Shown here: positions 5,657 to 13,063 of the stretch, one piece after another
Layout: every line of letters starts with the position of its first letter
Position numbering within the stretch: position 1 is the stretch's first letter
DNA from: Agaricicola taiwanensis
Lineage (GTDB): Bacteria; Pseudomonadota; Alphaproteobacteria; Rhizobiales; Methylopilaceae
DNA: 64,000 bases
Reading direction: 5' to 3'
Assembly (NCBI RefSeq): GCF_014635245.1
Contig: NZ_BMCP01000001.1
Location: 744,001-808,000, forward strand
Translations under genes and position numbers: made by a program
The notes under the pieces: model-generated
Seen by the model: the letters and a program-made list of their open reading frames with translations, nothing else
What the model was told of the DNA's origin: nothing
Database searches by the model: none

Positions 5657-5731
5657 TCGTGCCGCCCTAATGGAAGACGTGAAATCGGCAGCGTCCAGCG
5701 TTCGCGATTAAAACAGATTTAGGAAGGTAGC

Positions 5732-5807
5732 TGGCGCACCCGACACGATTCGAAGTGTGACCTTTGCCTTCGGAGGGCAACGCTCTATCCAGCTGAGCTA
5801 CGGGTGC
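5732..5807 (-). pseudogene. tRNA-Arg(CCG) copy with one-base T-arm deletion
   Basis: A 76-base copy of the intact tRNA-Arg at 12971-13047, including the acceptor stem, D-arm, CCG anticodon arm and encoded CCA. It differs only in the T-arm, where one G is lost and a pair is changed, leaving a four-pair stem (ACAC/GTGT) with an eight-base loop. Such a T-arm should fold poorly, so I regard it as a displaced, decaying copy. Its upstream sequence beyond 5823 is element DNA rather than the native tRNA promoter. Confidence 0.75.
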
Positions 5808-5823
5808 TTGCCTTAAGCAGTGC
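5759..5823. repeat. Left direct repeat (attL core)
   Basis: Sixty-five bases identical to 12999-13063. They cover the tRNA from its 5' end to the T-arm border plus 16 bases upstream of the tRNA. Beyond 5823 the sequence changes to element DNA. Confidence 0.85.
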
Positions 5824-5914: not shown

Positions 5915-6895
5915 ATGGCGACGATCCGCAAACATCGAGACAAGTTTCAGGTGCAGATTCGCAGGAAGGGATTTCCCGCGATCTCACGTTCTTTCAACCG
6001 CATGTCCGACGCGAAAGAATGGGCGCGACAGATGGAGTCGCAGGCAGACCGTCGCGGAATGGCTGGCGATCCACGAGAGCTTGAGCGCATCACGCTTTTT
6101 GATGTGATCACACGCTATCGCGACACGGTCACACCGACAAAGCGCGGGCATGCCGTCGAGCACACGTTTCTCACCGCGTTTCTGCGTCATCCAATCTGCC
6201 GAAAGCGTCTCTCAGACGTTACGACTGCTGATTTCATAGCGTATCGTGATGAGCGGTTGGCTTCGGTGTCGCCGCATACTGTGAAGCGACAGCTCGGACC
6301 AATCCGCAACATGTTCGAAGTTGCACGCGACGAATGGGGATTGCCGATCAATGAAAACCCGCTAGCTCGGCTAAAGATCAACCTGCAGCCTAACCAGCGC
6401 GAGCGGCGGCTTGTCTCGAACGAGTATCAGCGCTTGATGATCGCGGCATCCGACCGGCGTTGTGGGATGGTCGCACGGATCATGGTGTTTGCGGTCGAGA
6501 CCGCTATGCGGCGCGGCGAAATCCTTGCGATGCGGTGGGATCATATAAATTTCGAACGGCGAACGCTTCTCATTCCCTCAACTAAGAACGGTCACGCGAG
6601 GACTATCGCGCTATCAGTTAGGGCAATGGCGATGTTGACGCCACACACTCAGCCGAACGTGTTCCCGATGACCGCGAACGCACTGCGGTTAGCATGGGAA
6701 CGGATCAGACTACGGTGCGAGGTGGAAGACATCCACTTCCACGATCTGCGCCACGAAGGCATCAGCCGCTTTTTCGAGATGAGCCTAACGGTACCGGAGG
6801 CGCAGTTGATGTCGGGGCATCGAGACATGAGGATGTTACAACGCTATTCACATGCTGCTCGTGAGCAAATTCATCAGAAGCTGGCATCGCGGTGA
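5915..6895 (+). CDS. Tyrosine recombinase / site-specific integrase
   Basis: A 326-residue phage-type integrase. An N-terminal arm-binding segment and SAM-like core-binding region (about 55-165) precede the catalytic domain. The catalytic set is visible: Arg in AMRRGEIL (about 200), Lys in STKNGHAR, HDLRHEG (His-x-x-Arg), the second His in SGHRDM, and the nucleophile Tyr in QRYSHA at about 311. It lies 92 bases inside the left direct repeat and presumably recombines at the tRNA-Arg site. Its upstream region carries the paired CTGGTCACA repeats. Confidence 0.93.
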   Translation: MATIRKHRDKFQVQIRRKGFPAISRSFNRMSDAKEWARQMESQADRRGMAGDPRELERITLFDVITRYRDTVTPTKRGHAVEHTFLTAFLRHPICRKRLSDVTTADFIAYRDERLASVSPHTVKRQLGPIRNMFEVARDEWGLPINENPLARLKINLQPNQRERRLVSNEYQRLMIAASDRRCGMVARIMVFAVETAMRRGEILAMRWDHINFERRTLLIPSTKNGHARTIALSVRAMAMLTPHTQPNVFPMTANALRLAWERIRLRCEVEDIHFHDLRHEGISRFFEMSLTVPEAQLMSGHRDMRMLQRYSHAAREQIHQKLASR

Positions 6896-7516: not shown

Positions 7517-7546
7517 GTATCGACACTTTGCAGAGGATTGCCTCTC

Positions 7547-7774
7547 ATGACACCCGATGCCGCCTATGCGCTGAAACTGCTTCCCGAGGCCGATGAGGCC
7601 CTAATTCCGTCATCCAGGCTGCCCGCCTACCTAGGCGTAGCGGAGCAAACGCTTGCTCGCTGGCGTCACGAGGGGAAAGGGCCTGCCTTCATCAAGGTAG
7701 GTCGAGCCGTGCTTTATCAGACTGGACAGGTCCGTGAGTGGCTTCAAGCCAACAAGCAGGGCATAGCCTCTTGA
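7547..7774 (+). CDS. Excisionase/AlpA-type helix-turn-helix protein
   Basis: A 75-residue DNA-binding protein. LIPSSRLPAYLGVAEQTLAR is a MerR-like helix-turn-helix followed by WRHEGKGPAFIKVGRAVLY, the signature of the HTH_17 excisionase/AlpA group. Such proteins act as recombination directionality factors or activate element genes. The ATG at 7547 is ten bases after AGAGG (7532-7536); a TTG at 7538 is too close to it. The location between the integrase and the replication-like gene matches phage satellites and integrative elements. Confidence 0.8.
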   Translation: MTPDAAYALKLLPEADEALIPSSRLPAYLGVAEQTLARWRHEGKGPAFIKVGRAVLYQTGQVREWLQANKQGIAS

Positions 7775-8468: not shown

Positions 8469-9068
8469 TTACCAACCCATTTCCATATCAACGATGCGAG
8501 TGACGTAGCGATGCACGTCTCGCAGATAGGAATTAGCAGGCTCGACCGCGCTGAGACCGTTATTTTTCAGCACTGGCACCGAGCGGCGTAAAAACGCTTC
8601 CTCAGTGAAATACGCGTGCGGCGGAAATCCCAACCCAGCCGATATTGTTGCGTCAACGTATAAGCCGACTTGGTCGATGTAGACGCACAACGGTTCGGCC
8701 GTTCCGTTCTTGCGTCGGCAATCGCGAGACAATATTTCGAGTCCACTCATACCCTGATCTTTGAAGGTCTCAACCGCATTGATGACGGGTACCCGGTAGA
8801 ACTTTTGCAATTGGACAAACTCGCGGCAGCCTGCAGCGTGATTAATTGAGCGTTCTGTGCACCTCCGCTCGGTCGTAATGTCGTTTTCTAGCGCCCATCG
8901 AAACCCAGCATTTCGTTCATGCGCTAATTCCGCTATAGCGCGTTGGGCCGCTTCATCACCAGCTTTGCGCATGGCGTCCCGAACGATCCCGTTCACCAAA
9001 TCCGCGTGAGCCGATCCGGCCGTCAACGCCAGAAGCAGTGATGTTGCGAACAGACTGACACGAAACAT
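8469..9068 (-). CDS. Exported protein of unknown function
   Basis: A 199-residue protein with a clear signal peptide (MFRVSLFATSLLLALTAGSA, cleavage near AHA-D). The mature part has several cysteines (RRCTERSINHAAGCREF, RDCRRKNGTAEPLC) that could form disulfides, and no domain I recognise. The ATG at 9068 is chosen because GAGG sits six bases upstream; an earlier TTG at 9092 would overlap the preceding stop. It is the second gene of a pair with a lipoprotein, reading opposite to the integrase side. Both products should be in the envelope. Confidence 0.65.
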   Translation of the reverse strand: MFRVSLFATSLLLALTAGSAHADLVNGIVRDAMRKAGDEAAQRAIAELAHERNAGFRWALENDITTERRCTERSINHAAGCREFVQLQKFYRVPVINAVETFKDQGMSGLEILSRDCRRKNGTAEPLCVYIDQVGLYVDATISAGLGFPPHAYFTEEAFLRRSVPVLKNNGLSAVEPANSYLRDVHRYVTRIVDMEMGW

Positions 9069-9088
9069 CTGATACCTCGGCTTGAGCT

Positions 9089-9619
9089 TCAAAATGCAGC
9101 GCGGCGATAACGTTCAGGTTGCGTCAGCGTCCTGAAGGTTGCGGCTTGATCCTCCGCAGCACCCGCCAGCCTTTCGCTCGATGCGGCAATCGTATCGATG
9201 GCTTGCGAGTTCGCTTGCGCTTGCATGACCTGAGCGACTGCCCCCACTCGTTGAGCTCGACGGCGATGGAGCTCGCTAGTCAGACGCGATGTGACCTGTG
9301 CGAACTGCGCTTGTGCTTGCGTGCGGGTTAGCCGTCCTCGATCAACCTGTTCAGCGATGGCCATCCTTGCCGCTGTTTTCGCTCGAATGAGATCGGCATC
9401 GCCGCCGTAAGCAGCAATCGCCGCCTCGTCCGCGCTATTGGCGCACGTAGCACGTGCTCGTGCAGTGTCGAACCGCTGCGCATCACACACAGCCTGCTTT
9501 TGATCAGCTAGGGCGAACAGCTGACGTGTTTGCGTTCCGTCTGCGGTCGTTGTGCATCCACCGCCGATCAGCGATACAGCGAAGGCAGAAACAATCAGCT
9601 TCGAACGACGATGCAACAT
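9089..9619 (-). CDS. Putative lipoprotein with coiled-coil content
   Basis: A 176-residue protein with a basic start, a hydrophobic stretch and a lipobox SLIGGGC, after which the cysteine would be lipidated. The rest is Ala/Arg/Gln-rich helix (RLTRTQAQAQFAQVTSRL and similar) likely to form coiled coil. It lies upstream of the exported-protein gene with a 20-base gap. No family is recognised. The arrangement loosely recalls small envelope proteins of mobile elements such as entry-exclusion pairs, but there is no direct evidence. Confidence 0.6.
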   Translation of the reverse strand: MLHRRSKLIVSAFAVSLIGGGCTTTADGTQTRQLFALADQKQAVCDAQRFDTARARATCANSADEAAIAAYGGDADLIRAKTAARMAIAEQVDRGRLTRTQAQAQFAQVTSRLTSELHRRRAQRVGAVAQVMQAQANSQAIDTIAASSERLAGAAEDQAATFRTLTQPERYRRAAF

Positions 9620-9687
9620 AAGCGAACACCCCAACTTACATACTATAGTTGATAAACCGAGAAGCGCACTCCTGCAATCGGTAGCGC

Positions 9688-9900
9688 ATGGATATGCGCA
9701 AGCTCGTCGGTGACAACTTTGCTCGGATACGCCAAGCTCGGGGGCTTACACAGGAGCAAGTCGCCGAACTCTCGGGGTATAGTCAGCAATATATAAGCGA
9801 CTTGGAGCGGGGCAAGCGAAACCCAACAGTGATAACTCTTTTTGAGCTAGCGGCCGTTCTGAGCGTTAGTCATGTCGACCTAGTGAAAGAGCCCGATTAG
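9688..9900 (+). CDS. XRE-family repressor-like HTH protein
   Basis: A 70-residue protein that is almost entirely a Cro/CI-type helix-turn-helix: NFARIRQARGLTQEQVAELS, then GYSQQYISDLERGKRNPTV and LFELAAVLSV. It probably represses element genes. It is divergent from the lipoprotein gene and convergent with the three-gene operon. An 8-base palindrome ACTATAGT at 9642-9649 in the upstream gap could be its operator. Confidence 0.85.
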   Translation: MDMRKLVGDNFARIRQARGLTQEQVAELSGYSQQYISDLERGKRNPTVITLFELAAVLSVSHVDLVKEPD

Positions 9901-9924: not shown

Positions 9925-10581
9925 TTAAGAATTGCCTGATCTGGCTAAATTTCGCTGACTTGGTGTTTTGTTATCCATGGGTTTCCAATATAAGCTCACA
10001 AGAATGTGGCGAACTGTAAATGGACGCTCCGTACCTTCATGTTTGTGTATCGATACAGTATCGTTATCGTTCTCAATTATACTAACATCTGACCTATTAG
10101 ACTTAAGATGTTTTAGCCATCGGCTAAACATCGATGCAGAATTTTTGCGATAACTAAATATTAGCATAGATCCTGTGTCTTGCCCTTCTAACCCTGTTGA
10201 ATATCTTGTATCAAGCTGCTCGTATCCTTTCAATATCCAATTGTAGTCTGTTCCTAGCTTTGATTCTCCTATCCATAAAAAACCAAAATAGCCGCGAATG
10301 ACTATATCACAGTGGCCTCCTATCTGTGTGTCATGTGTTGCATCCACTCCCTGAGCTTGCAACATCATGACGAGATCAATGGTAAGTTCATCTTCAGATC
10401 GTTTTTGCTTTAAATGCCTGTTTTCCACAAGAATTCGAGCGCATAAATCAATAGATTTATTCACAATCTTATTTTGTTCTTCAAACGATCTATTAAATAG
10501 GCGATCAAGTGACAGTGTGGCTGGCAAATCACCATTTGTCATAAGGCGAAGTTCTCTGAGGCTGTAGCGCTCTTCAGTCAT
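9925..10581 (-). CDS. PD-(D/E)XK nuclease-like protein, third gene of candidate defence operon
   Basis: A 218-residue protein. The middle shows the order expected of PD-(D/E)XK nucleases: a helix with Glu (SEDELTIDLVMML), then Asp in GGHCDIVIRG, then Glu-x-Lys in WIGESKLG, and a following helix with Gln (ILKGYEQLDTRYS). The catalytic triad would be the Asp, Glu and Lys. The start at 10581 overlaps the previous gene by eight bases, so the proteins are made together. The gene is clearly AT-rich (23 G/C in the 60 bases 9961-10020). The nuclease call rests on motif order by eye; I know no named family for it. Confidence 0.65.
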   Translation of the reverse strand: MTEERYSLRELRLMTNGDLPATLSLDRLFNRSFEEQNKIVNKSIDLCARILVENRHLKQKRSEDELTIDLVMMLQAQGVDATHDTQIGGHCDIVIRGYFGFLWIGESKLGTDYNWILKGYEQLDTRYSTGLEGQDTGSMLIFSYRKNSASMFSRWLKHLKSNRSDVSIIENDNDTVSIHKHEGTERPFTVRHILVSLYWKPMDNKTPSQRNLARSGNS

Positions 10582-10975
10582 TGGATTCAAGAAAGTTCGA
10601 AGATGGGACAAAGAACGGATATATTCTATCCTGATAGTCGTTGATCTCAGCTCCCGTATAGGGATGAATAAAAACGCCGGTCCTGCAAACCTCGGCAAAT
10701 TCTCGCGCGTCTAACTCGATTTCTTCCTCATCATTATCCGAATAGTGTGCGTGTATATCTAATGCCGCAATACGAGGGCTCGCGAGGATATTGATCGCAG
10801 CGAGCAACACTTGATTATTCACCTCGACCCCAACGGCATTTCCCAGCGTCTTGAACGTTAGGAGTTGAACGTGATTACGATGTTCGGAAACATACTCAAC
10901 GATCTTCAAAGAGGCATCGCGCGCCGGGCCCTTTTCCCAACGTTCAAGTGCGTCAGTGATCGTCTTGATGCTCAT
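10574..10975 (-). CDS. Unrecognised small protein, second gene of candidate defence operon
   Basis: A 133-residue acidic protein. ALERWEKGPARDASLKIVEY and NHVQLLTFKTLGNAVGVEVN suggest a helical, possibly winged-helix-like N-terminal part. A very acidic segment SDNDEEEIELD follows, then a conserved-looking C-terminus (VCRTGVFIHPYTGAEINDY). The ATG at 10975 overlaps the first gene's stop codon as ATGA; the longer upstream frame is only overlap. Sandwiched between an unknown large protein and a nuclease-like protein, it may be an adaptor or partner. No family is recognised. Confidence 0.6.
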   Translation of the reverse strand: MSIKTITDALERWEKGPARDASLKIVEYVSEHRNHVQLLTFKTLGNAVGVEVNNQVLLAAINILASPRIAALDIHAHYSDNDEEEIELDAREFAEVCRTGVFIHPYTGAEINDYQDRIYPFFVPSSNFLESND

Positions 10976-12051
10976 GGGTTTGGCTTTGCTGCCGTTGGTG
11001 AACCATAAAGATGACTGGCGATACGTGATCTTACGAAATTGTAATCGGAGTTTCCTAAGCACTTCCTTAGGTTAACCGATAGCATCGATGGCATGGCTGA
11101 TCCGGCAATGCGGACACTGCTATTTAAGCTCAATTCAGGTGTTGAGAACTGATCGTGACGTAATGGTAGCTTCCACATAATGCTGACGCGATAGGGTTCA
11201 ATCGGCGTTGGGAGGTTCGCCTTGCCACCGACATGATAGCTTTCCTTTCGCAAGCATGCGCCCTGACGCCGCATTTTTTCTTGTTTGACCGAGGCGGTAG
11301 AGGTTCCAAACCCAAGTTCGACAACAACGCCTTCTTTTTCATCGCCATACATTTTTTCGATCAGCGGAAACAAGTTGATAGGGTTGGAGAAAATGTTCTG
11401 GCCAACAAGCTTGTTAAAGGCCTCTGCTAGATCAATGTGTGCGTTTTCTGCTGCTTCGCCCAACATTCCGAGCGGTTGATCGACTCGCGCATCGGCAAGC
11501 TTGGACTTTCCGGGAATCCAAATGACATCAAACGCTTGAATGCGTTTTGTTTTCAGCCCAACAATCTCCTCATAGGACTGGAAAAGATCGGAGGCTGTCT
11601 CGGTAGGTAATTGATCAGGTCGAATGGGCTCACGGATTGTCTGCGTTCGGACCGAACAGAAAACGAATGCGGTGTCTTCTCCAACGGTTTCGATGGCTGT
11701 TAAGATCGGCTTGTTTGGCAGGCCTGCTAACTGATCTTCCGGCACAGATGCCGGATAGTGCTTCCTAAACTCGCTTTCTGGAATTGGTTCGAGGAATTGG
11801 CTCGACTGGCAGAGGGACCGCTCATCGTCGGAGATGTGGAAAAAGCGCACACTCTTTTCCCCGCAAAATATATGTTCTCGAAGCGCAGCTTCCAAGCTGC
11901 TGACCTGCTCATCTGTAAGATCATCACTTGCGATTTTTTGAACGGTTTTTTCCCAGCCCATGCCGCGATCAAGATCAAGCTGTCGAAGAATTTTCTGAGC
12001 AATTTGAAATGGCATTCGCGCCTGCATGCTTTTCGCAAGGTTTGCTTTCAT
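10972..12051 (-). CDS. Unrecognised 359-residue protein, first gene of candidate defence operon
   Basis: A 359-residue soluble protein with no signal peptide or membrane helix. I recognise no domain. Notable segments are QIAQKILRQLDLDRGMGWEK near the N-terminus, VEDTAFVF-like strands in the middle (GEDTAFVFCSVRTQTIREP), FDVIWIPGKSKLADARVDQ, and VVVELGFGTSTASVKQE. The ATG at 12051 has GGAG eight bases away. It heads a three-gene unit whose members overlap by 4 and 8 bases. Its size and position would suit a sensor or a large partner of the downstream nuclease-like protein; this is inference from operon structure. Confidence 0.6.
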   Translation of the reverse strand: MKANLAKSMQARMPFQIAQKILRQLDLDRGMGWEKTVQKIASDDLTDEQVSSLEAALREHIFCGEKSVRFFHISDDERSLCQSSQFLEPIPESEFRKHYPASVPEDQLAGLPNKPILTAIETVGEDTAFVFCSVRTQTIREPIRPDQLPTETASDLFQSYEEIVGLKTKRIQAFDVIWIPGKSKLADARVDQPLGMLGEAAENAHIDLAEAFNKLVGQNIFSNPINLFPLIEKMYGDEKEGVVVELGFGTSTASVKQEKMRRQGACLRKESYHVGGKANLPTPIEPYRVSIMWKLPLRHDQFSTPELSLNSSVRIAGSAMPSMLSVNLRKCLGNSDYNFVRSRIASHLYGSPTAAKPNP

Positions 12052-12375: not shown

Positions 12376-12970
12376 AAACGACGGACTATCACTAGTGTGC
12401 CGTCGATTCCGCCACCGCCGCCAATTCAATAAGCGGCTTTTATAACGCGCGTATCAAAAGCAACTCGAACGGCAGGTAGTTTGATTGCCGCGATCACTCG
12501 GTGCCGAAATTCGAATAAGGCCAAATGCGTCCGGCTCCATCTAAGCTCATTCGCTATCGACAGATGGTTGCACGCACTGAAAGTTGGGTTGTCAATCAGG
12601 TCGTGATGTGGGGTCTATGATGCTCAAGCTCCTAAGTGGTACTTTCGCCGGTACCGCACCGATTGCGCTCCCAAAGGCAGCACTCCGCGTCGATGCAAGT
12701 GGGGGACAATGAGCCTCACTTTGCTCCACGCACGCACTACGCACTCCGCCGTTTTGTTTTCTCCGGGGGGAGGCTCATCGATCTTTGCGCAGGTAGTAGG
12801 TGAACCGGCATCATCATGTGATCTGGTCACACGCTGGTCACACTAGCCGCATCCCATCGTCAGTCTTTCGTAAACGACAGCAGCCGATTGCTTTCGCTTC
12901 CACTGCGTTCTAGAATCGCGCAAGCGGTTGCGAAATGAGAGGTTTTTGCGGCTGCGGATGAGTTGGAAGT
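12376..12970. other. Element DNA without a recognisable gene
   Basis: This 595-base stretch between the small exported-protein gene and the intact tRNA-Arg holds no convincing coding frame on either strand. The only structure I can support is the CTGGTCACA pair at 12823-12842. The right part is presumably attachment-site DNA used by the integrase. Confidence 0.5.
12823..12842 (+). repeat. Paired CTGGTCACA repeats, right integrase arm-type site
   Basis: CTGGTCACA occurs at 12823-12831 and 12834-12842, matching the pair at 5883-5902 in sequence, orientation and 11-base period. In the excised circle the two pairs would flank the attachment core. Confidence 0.6.
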
Positions 12971-13047
12971 TGGCGCACCCGGCACGATTCGAACGTGCGA
13001 CCTTTGCCTTCGGAGGGCAACGCTCTATCCAGCTGAGCTACGGGTGC
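12971..13047 (-). tRNA. tRNA-Arg (anticodon CCG)
   Basis: Read on the minus strand, this folds as a complete 77-base tRNA: acceptor GCACCCG/CGGGTGC, D-arm GCTCAGCTGGATAGAGC, anticodon arm TTGCC/GGCAA with loop CTCCGAA (anticodon CCG, codon CGG), T-arm GCACG/CGTGC around TTCGAAT, discriminator G and encoded CCA. It is the intact member of three copies and keeps its native upstream flank to the right. The 3' end from 12998 leftward lies in element DNA, as expected if the island restored the tRNA on integration. Confidence 0.95.
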
Positions 13048-13063
13048 TTGCCTTAAGCAGTGC
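12999..13063. repeat. Right direct repeat (attR core)
   Basis: Sixty-five bases identical to 5759-5823, covering the 5' part of the tRNA-Arg gene and 16 bases upstream of it. Sequence diverges from 13064. Confidence 0.85.

Follow-up and report, generated by a model that had tools for sequence, protein, structure and literature searches.

Here we describe a three-gene operon, HP1-HP2-HP3, in a 64,000-nucleotide stretch of the Agaricicola taiwanensis genome (contig NZ_BMCP01000001.1, positions 744,001 to 808,000; hereafter, the window) and propose, with moderate confidence, that it is a DNA-targeting defence operon carried on a mobile element, which would act against phages. HP1 has the predicted fold of RdgC, HP3 that of a PD-(D/E)XK nuclease, and the small acidic HP2 is proposed to connect them. 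A sequence-only reading had pointed out three tightly packed genes with products of 359, 133 and 218 residues, and the same open reading frames (ORFs) were recovered here, HP1 overlapping HP2 by 4 bases (10972-10975) and HP2 overlapping HP3 by 8 bases (10574-10581). The HP1 frame is open further upstream, from 12090. The G+C content of the operon is 45.6%, as compared to 63.0% and 63.8% in its flanks. That reading had recognised no family for the first two products; Pfam and NCBIfam indeed gave no family at E≤1 for HP1, HP2 or HP3, but all three matched PHROG families, namely phrog_12777 (HP1, E 1.7e-47), phrog_11490 (HP2, 1e-21) and phrog_9664 (HP3, 3.4e-45), each annotated as of 'unknown function'. 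The sole row returned by PADLOC, HP2 at E 0.018, was judged to be noise. The system had also been called a candidate undescribed defence system. The word undescribed has to be qualified, since the families already stand in PHROGs as unknowns and a similar P1-protective cassette has been published (PMC9122126; papers are cited here and below for the passages that bear on the point), whereas no report of the folds of HP1-3, of the HP2-HP3 unit or of its swaps was found among the papers listed by the literature searches (most subscription journals and bioRxiv lay outside their coverage).

The AlphaFold2 (AF2) model of HP3 (mean pLDDT 93.1, pTM 0.87) comprises a helix (63-76), strands 80-86, 90-96 (with D92) and 102-109 (with E106-x-K108), a helix at 113-127 (with Q122) and a strand at 136-143, which fits the alpha-beta-beta-beta-alpha-beta core with D and (D/E)xK on adjacent strands. 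Residues E63, D92, E106, K108 and Q122 were invariant in 37 of 37 aligned relatives. When the model was compared by VIA, the best rows were OkrAI (Z 9.9), BamHI (9.7) and BglII (9.1), and McrBC, Can2, Card1, NucC, HamA (8vxy, Z 5.6) and SduA were among the further matches; all of these we take to be PD-(D/E)XK enzymes. Foldseek gave no match to the HP3 model at E≤0.001, and sequence profiles compared with PDB chains gave no real match for HP1, HP2 or HP3. The E...D...ExK motif noticed earlier in the third protein (E63...D92...E106-x-K108) occupies the helix and strands where a PD-(D/E)XK enzyme would have it, and on the nuclease fold, proposed as a check, the AF2 model and the VIA matches to OkrAI, BamHI and BglII agree. 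HP3 is read here as a putative nuclease of predicted PD-(D/E)XK fold. A profile likeness between HP2 and HP3 was dismissed, the hhalign probability being only 3.9%. Three proteins of 406-409 residues, at loci L142, L208 and L209, have a weakly HP3-like C-terminus (E 6e-10 to 3e-7) and were kept out of the HP3 family. The PADLOC candidate PDC-S54, to which a Pseudomonas HP3 has a weak match (E 7.8e-5), is 410 long, near the length of this group. A PIN_12 domain protein lies directly upstream of the HP3-like 408-residue protein in one genome (L142:5627-8101), and directly upstream of the HP1-3 operon in Hoeflea as well (L093:6165-9621).

The AF2 model of HP1 (mean pLDDT 92.5, pTM 0.89) had E. 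coli RdgC, 2owl, as its best PDB match (Foldseek E 2.2e-4, probability 1.00). VIA aligned 198 residues with 2owl_B at Z 11.5 and a root-mean-square deviation (rmsd) of 3.5 Å, a likeness of fold only. The match spans residues 61-349 of HP1 and leaves the N-terminal helical part (1-62) outside. In the BFVD viral library, the two best HP1 matches carried the annotations RdgC and recombination-associated protein, and the fourth was called an exonuclease. Membership of HP1 in RdgC proper (PF04381) was rejected at the sequence level, as hhalign gave a probability of 0.2% against 29 RdgC sequences. RdgC was followed in VIA by the kinetochore CCAN chain L (Z 8.0) and by nine entries (Z 5.1-6.3) which we take to be CENP-N/Chl4, the subunit names coming partly from chain letters. 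A prokaryotic counterpart of CENP-N, with N-terminal helices plus an RdgC-like part, was considered for HP1 and is mentioned only in passing, because Z of about 6 at rmsd of at least 5 falls in the range of noise and the likeness of RdgC to IML3/CHL4 has already been published (PMC4080450, PMC11077077). RexA was absent among the 50 HP1 structure matches listed. RexA is a DNA-binding phage-exclusion protein with the RdgC fold, common also to IML3 and CHL4, though its DNA binding in vitro is uncorrelated with its exclusion activity (PMC11077077). An RdgC-like protein is also known from histone operons (PMC11390915). Judged by its fold, HP1 is best read as a DNA-binding sensor.

The three genes co-occur well beyond the window, a point on which the sequence-only reading had wanted a check. 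A genome scan with the HP3 alignment yielded 30 loci, 27 of which have the three genes on one strand and in the order HP1-HP2-HP3; of the three exceptions, L117 starts at a contig edge, and L095 and L110 are informative (see below). Two loci with incomplete HP1, in two pieces (L107) or as a 102-residue piece only (L200), were counted as carrying HP1. Among all the loci examined (67, not deduplicated, 10 of the HP3 rows being more than 95% identical to another), 61 have the three genes with gaps of less than 120 bases, the median gaps being +1 and -4 bases. The other six are the window, which drops out only because the longest ORFs were used, L095, L110, L117, L129 and L210. The trio spans very distant genomes, from Cyanobacteria to Acinetobacter. 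HP3 was found in 15 of 249 sampled genomes of the family of Acinetobacter populi (the centre included), and the other 14 HP3-bearing genomes all have the three genes in order (HP1 being partial in L200). A phylum-wide sample gave HP3 in 8 of 398 genomes (counting the window's own and one weak match) and HP2 in 5 of 398; a class-wide sample gave HP3 in the window's own genome only (1 of 385), and the phylum of a Nostoc genome gave it in 3 of 339, with two weak matches among them. No relative turned up when viral contigs were scanned with the window HP1 by itself, and BLAST with the same protein gave no match in Moraxella, although a Moraxella phage carries the trio. Hydrophobic segments (19-residue window, Kyte-Doolittle mean of at least 1.8) were found in none of 36 HP1, 36 HP2 and 37 HP3 aligned members. 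The isoelectric point (pI) of HP2 lies between 4.2 and 5.7 in all 36 members.

Four loci place HP3, with or without HP2, behind a protein other than HP1. In Sphingopyxis (L095), HP2 forms residues 1035-1163 of a 1167-residue HsdR (E 1.1e-17) with HSDR_N and SWI2/SNF2 domains, which lies downstream of an HsdM gene and overlaps HP3 by 4 bases; no HP1 was found at this locus. In genome G417 (L129), HP2 forms residues 1635-1761 of a 1764-residue type ISP enzyme (E 3.4e-19) with Mrr-like nuclease, helicase, methylase and specificity domains; here, too, the overlap with HP3 is 4 bases. Thus, in both cases the HP2-like domain is the C-terminus of a restriction enzyme directly upstream of HP3. In Microcoleus (L110), HP3 itself forms residues 812-987 of a 995-residue NACHT-HEAT protein. 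The fourth locus, L210 of genome G371, carries a paralogue of ribosomal protein S3, residues 2-213 of which match PDB uS3 (E 5.6e-68; Pfam S3_C and KH_2); its residues 271-335 are weakly HP2-like (E 3.8e-5 in a small set) and HP3 starts 14 bases later. This S3 paralogue with its C-terminal extension (L210:743-1804, minus strand) stands beside an S24-type repressor gene as well as HP3, and is a possible unusual immune sensor. The layout of a large sensor, a small adaptor and a nuclease effector, suggested earlier from gene order, fits these fusion data well. HP2 is accordingly described here as a proposed adaptor, which may also hold HP3 inactive.

In a tree of 56 HP3 proteins (rooted for drawing only), L095, L129, L110 and L210 fall in four separate places among HP1-linked relatives. 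Four changes are needed, all forced by starred branches, and the 5-95% range over 200 bootstrap trees is 4-4. Judging by this nesting, HP1 would be the older partner. On these sequences, HP2-HP3 behaves as a re-attachable unit. A wider proposal, which we hold only tentatively and slightly short of probable, is that HP2-HP3 is an unrecognised plug-in effector unit, made of an acidic adaptor and a predicted nuclease, and acquired several times: by an RdgC/RexA-fold clamp (the common form, as in the window), by a type I motor, by a type ISP enzyme, by an S3 paralogue and, as HP3 alone, by a NACHT-HEAT protein.

The sequence-only reading had also wanted the setting of the three genes in other genomes checked, and a phage-defence setting for the trio is likely. 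The gpA-gpQ region of P2 is a demonstrated defence hotspot (Rousset et al. 2022, PMC9122126). When 5426 complete E. coli genomes were searched with the cassette of a Klebsiella record, 28 matched, the match covering 80% or more of the query in 6, and in the three E. coli loci opened the trio is flanked by the genes for the P2-like replication endonuclease and the portal protein (gpA-gpQ). The same position is seen in the record of Klebsiella phage KP12. We fetched 80 IMG/VR loci with a P2-like portal protein, of which 71 had both borders; 5 of the 80 carry the trio there. The KP12 record (L002, OM835953.1) is classed in Vequintavirinae, yet there are P2-like genes on this stretch, and the cassette shares about 99% identity with the one found in six E. 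coli genomes; it is probably a contaminating induced prophage. In the record of 'Acinetobacter phage MD-2021a' (L003, CAKLQF020000019.1), the neighbours, enterobactin synthetase and glycerate kinase, look bacterial-chromosomal. Moraxella phage Mcat13 carries the trio beside a putative CI-like repressor, and plasmid records of Calothrix, Pseudomonas and Vibrio carry it too. In two related Acinetobacter loci (L118 and L119) the trio is directly upstream of a type I methylase-like gene; phmmer found type I methylase neighbours at these two and at L095. Among the first 25 families of each list in a PADLOC and Pfam scan of neighbours, type I methylase models matched 3 proteins, and one MkoC, one Drt2, 3 resolvases and 2 integrases were also present.

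For a cassette that answers to this description, a role in defence has already been published. A three-gene cassette without predicted domains from the P2 hotspot protects against P1 (Rousset et al. 2022, PMC9122126), and DefenseFinder lists Rst_3HP, found mostly on prophages (PMC9090908); that the name denotes the cassette of Rousset et al. is our own reading. The HP1-3 family, compared by description and not by sequence, may be the experimentally active Rst_3HP. We consider it rather probable that the two are exactly the same, in which case only the folds and the variants are new; this concerns identity and not mechanism, and is compatible with the defence operon proposed here. The two share the hotspot, three genes and the lack of predicted domains (PMC9122126), and HP1-3 is the commonest of four three-gene E. 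coli cassettes counted, with 28 of 5426 genomes against 20 (L064-type, with one STAS-like gene), 18 (L018-type, TIGR04255 and a regulator) and 6 (L059-type, three hypotheticals), though the 28 come from a more sensitive search and the others from megablast. Against the identity, PADLOC-DB has no family named 3HP, and the L059 type is a second all-hypothetical three-gene cassette at the P2 hotspot. The published description fits the E. coli and IMG/VR relatives, whereas the window copy lies in a tRNA-integrated element and not in a P2-like prophage; the accounts, in the passages cited, give no fold, mechanism or HP2/HP3 swap (PMC9122126, PMC9090908). Literature searches by accession and by PHROG name returned no relevant paper on this identity. 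3HP is abundant in Salmonella Typhi (PMC11305592). The HP1-3 family is the likeliest, though not the only, candidate for Rst_3HP.

In the mechanism that we propose for the defence operon, HP1, being RdgC/RexA-like, would load on DNA, probably in the form of a dimeric ring or horseshoe, and sense a phage- or plasmid-specific DNA state linked to infection. HP2 would couple HP1 to HP3, pass on the signal and keep HP3 in check until the sensor fires, upon which HP3 would cut DNA; the outcome may be either destruction of phage DNA or arrest of the host. HP2-HP3 would be transferable, having been placed by evolution behind HsdR, the type ISP enzyme and the S3 paralogue, with HP3 alone on NACHT-HEAT. 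Sensing of DNA is favoured because the swaps go to DNA-tracking restriction enzymes; judging from the S3 and NACHT forms, the same predicted nuclease may respond to other inputs as well.

Several observations weigh against this proposal. The literature searched yielded no experiments on proteins known to belong to the HP1-3 family and no phage test of the window copy, and PADLOC recognises none of the window HP1-3 or of their Klebsiella or Acinetobacter counterparts. HP1 lacks a sequence-profile relation to RdgC, so that DNA binding is read from the fold, and its pI ranges from 4.9 to 9.5 across 36 members and is not uniformly basic. HP2 is known here only from its sequence. The rare and patchy distribution of the family suits any mobile cargo, and the neighbour scan, which covered 125 of 131 picked proteins without a control set, supports no claim of enrichment. 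As regards the swaps, the HP2-like part of L210 was not found at 1e-4 in a larger set, its contig has only 3,289 bases, and it forms a long branch in the HP3 tree, some joins of which are unstarred. Shuffled labels gave a mean of 3.9 changes against the 4 observed, and the tree therefore excludes a single shared origin and nothing more.

The first alternative mechanism, which we regard as unlikely, is abortive infection or a toxin-antitoxin module, wherein HP3 attacks host DNA, HP2 is the antitoxin or inhibitor and HP1 releases HP3 on infection, so that the cell dies or arrests and the element is stabilised. HP2 is uniformly acidic and immediately precedes HP3 in the 61 short-gap loci, the element is small, and the trio has no methyltransferase to protect host DNA, all of which would suit it. 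For HP1-3, Pfam and NCBIfam gave no family of toxins or antitoxins. Against this reading, fusion of HP2 to HsdR and to the type ISP enzyme is unusual for a free antitoxin, HP3 exists without HP2 (NACHT-HEAT fusion), and by far the most loci retain HP1 (61 of 67, plus the window). It is improbable that the operon is instead a recombination or lysogeny-control module, with HP1 acting on the prophage decision or RecA and HP2-HP3 processing DNA for transfer of the element: RdgC, whose fold HP1 has, modulates RecA, RexA biases the lambda switch (PMC11077077), and the operon occurs in phage records and in a small integrative element, but the trio is also found beside the type I methylase-like gene of the two Acinetobacter loci and on plasmids, and the exchange of the sensor for restriction enzymes or a NACHT protein speaks for defence.

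Table 1. Operon, surrounding element and separate HP3-like group (positions in the window, or in the locus named)
Feature	Position	Strand	Remarks
HP1	10972-12051	-	359 residues, start ATG at 12051; predicted RdgC-fold protein, proposed DNA-binding sensor
HP2	10574-10975	-	133 residues; small acidic protein, proposed adaptor between sensor and HP3
HP3	9925-10581	-	218 residues; predicted PD-(D/E)XK-fold nuclease, proposed effector (E63, D92, E106, K108, Q122)
Tyrosine integrase of the element	5915-6895	+	PF00589 E 5.1e-24; phrog_1 6.7e-53
Small HTH_17/excisionase-like protein of the element	7538-7774	+	HTH_17 E 3e-8; phrog_66 1.2e-6
XRE/HTH_3 regulator	9688-9900	+	HTH_3 E 5.1e-19; convergent with the operon 3' end
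Left attachment (att) copy	5726-5823		altered tRNA-Arg gene copy; direct repeat with 12965-13063
Right att copy	12965-13063		contains tRNA-Arg(ccg) gene 12971-13047 (-)
Weak-HP3 group, L208	L208:6531-7760		separate group, 406-409 residues
Weak-HP3 group, L209	L209:6913-8133		same group
Weak-HP3 group, L142	L142:6875-8101		same group

The operon is carried as cargo by a 7.2-kb element that has integrated into a tRNA-Arg gene, the att direct repeats being 7.24 kb apart and matching over 69 bases at 99% and 29 bases at 90%. An integrase-bearing element had been surmised earlier, and both an integrase and direct repeats over tRNA-Arg are present. The left att copy retains nearly all of a tRNA-Arg gene, though in altered form, and ARAGORN does not call it. 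The XRE regulator (Table 1) adjoins the operon, as had been said, but stands beyond its 3' end and converges on it, away from the operon promoter. Two overlapping small genes (8469-9634, minus strand; 207 and 181 residues) are further cargo of the element; their products have moderately hydrophobic N-termini and no useful family match.

Several known systems resemble HP1-3 in part. Lambda RexAB is linked through RdgC, since HP1 has the RdgC fold which RexA shares (PMC11077077), but the trio has no RexB-like membrane partner, there being no hydrophobic segment in HP1-3, and its proposed effector is a nuclease. E. coli RdgC shares the fold of HP1 residues 61-349 but has no sequence relation to HP1, whose N-terminal helical part (1-62) lies outside the match. 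Hachiman HamAB, a nuclease with a DNA-sensing helicase, likewise sets a PD-(D/E)XK effector beside a DNA sensor, and HamA is among the HP3 fold matches, whereas the trio lacks a helicase and has the extra adaptor HP2; at the profile level, only one Acinetobacter HP3 matches HamA, and weakly (E 0.012). The recurrently acquired nuclease-protease pairs, too, are effector units of two proteins that unrelated immune systems have taken up, and in them one partner is joined to the core enzyme while the nuclease has a gene of its own; their nuclease, however, is a metallo-beta-lactamase (MBL)-type hydrolase, typically upstream, with a protease partner (PMC12799240). In contrast, HP3 is of predicted PD-(D/E)XK fold and lies downstream, and HP2 matches no protease family.

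The present analysis offers a mechanism, at the level of folds, for a type of hotspot cassette that was reported to be active but was left unexplained. It extends the RdgC/RexA/IML3/CHL4 fold to a nuclease-linked operon with a likely defence role, and shows how a candidate effector unit of two proteins has been paired repeatedly with very different sensors. Owing to the swaps, the adaptor hypothesis can be tested directly, as the same HP2-HP3 should respond to any sensor attached to it. The S3 fusion, if it holds up, would be an unusual kind of immune sensor, through which the cell could detect that its translation machinery is damaged or taken over and respond by cutting DNA.

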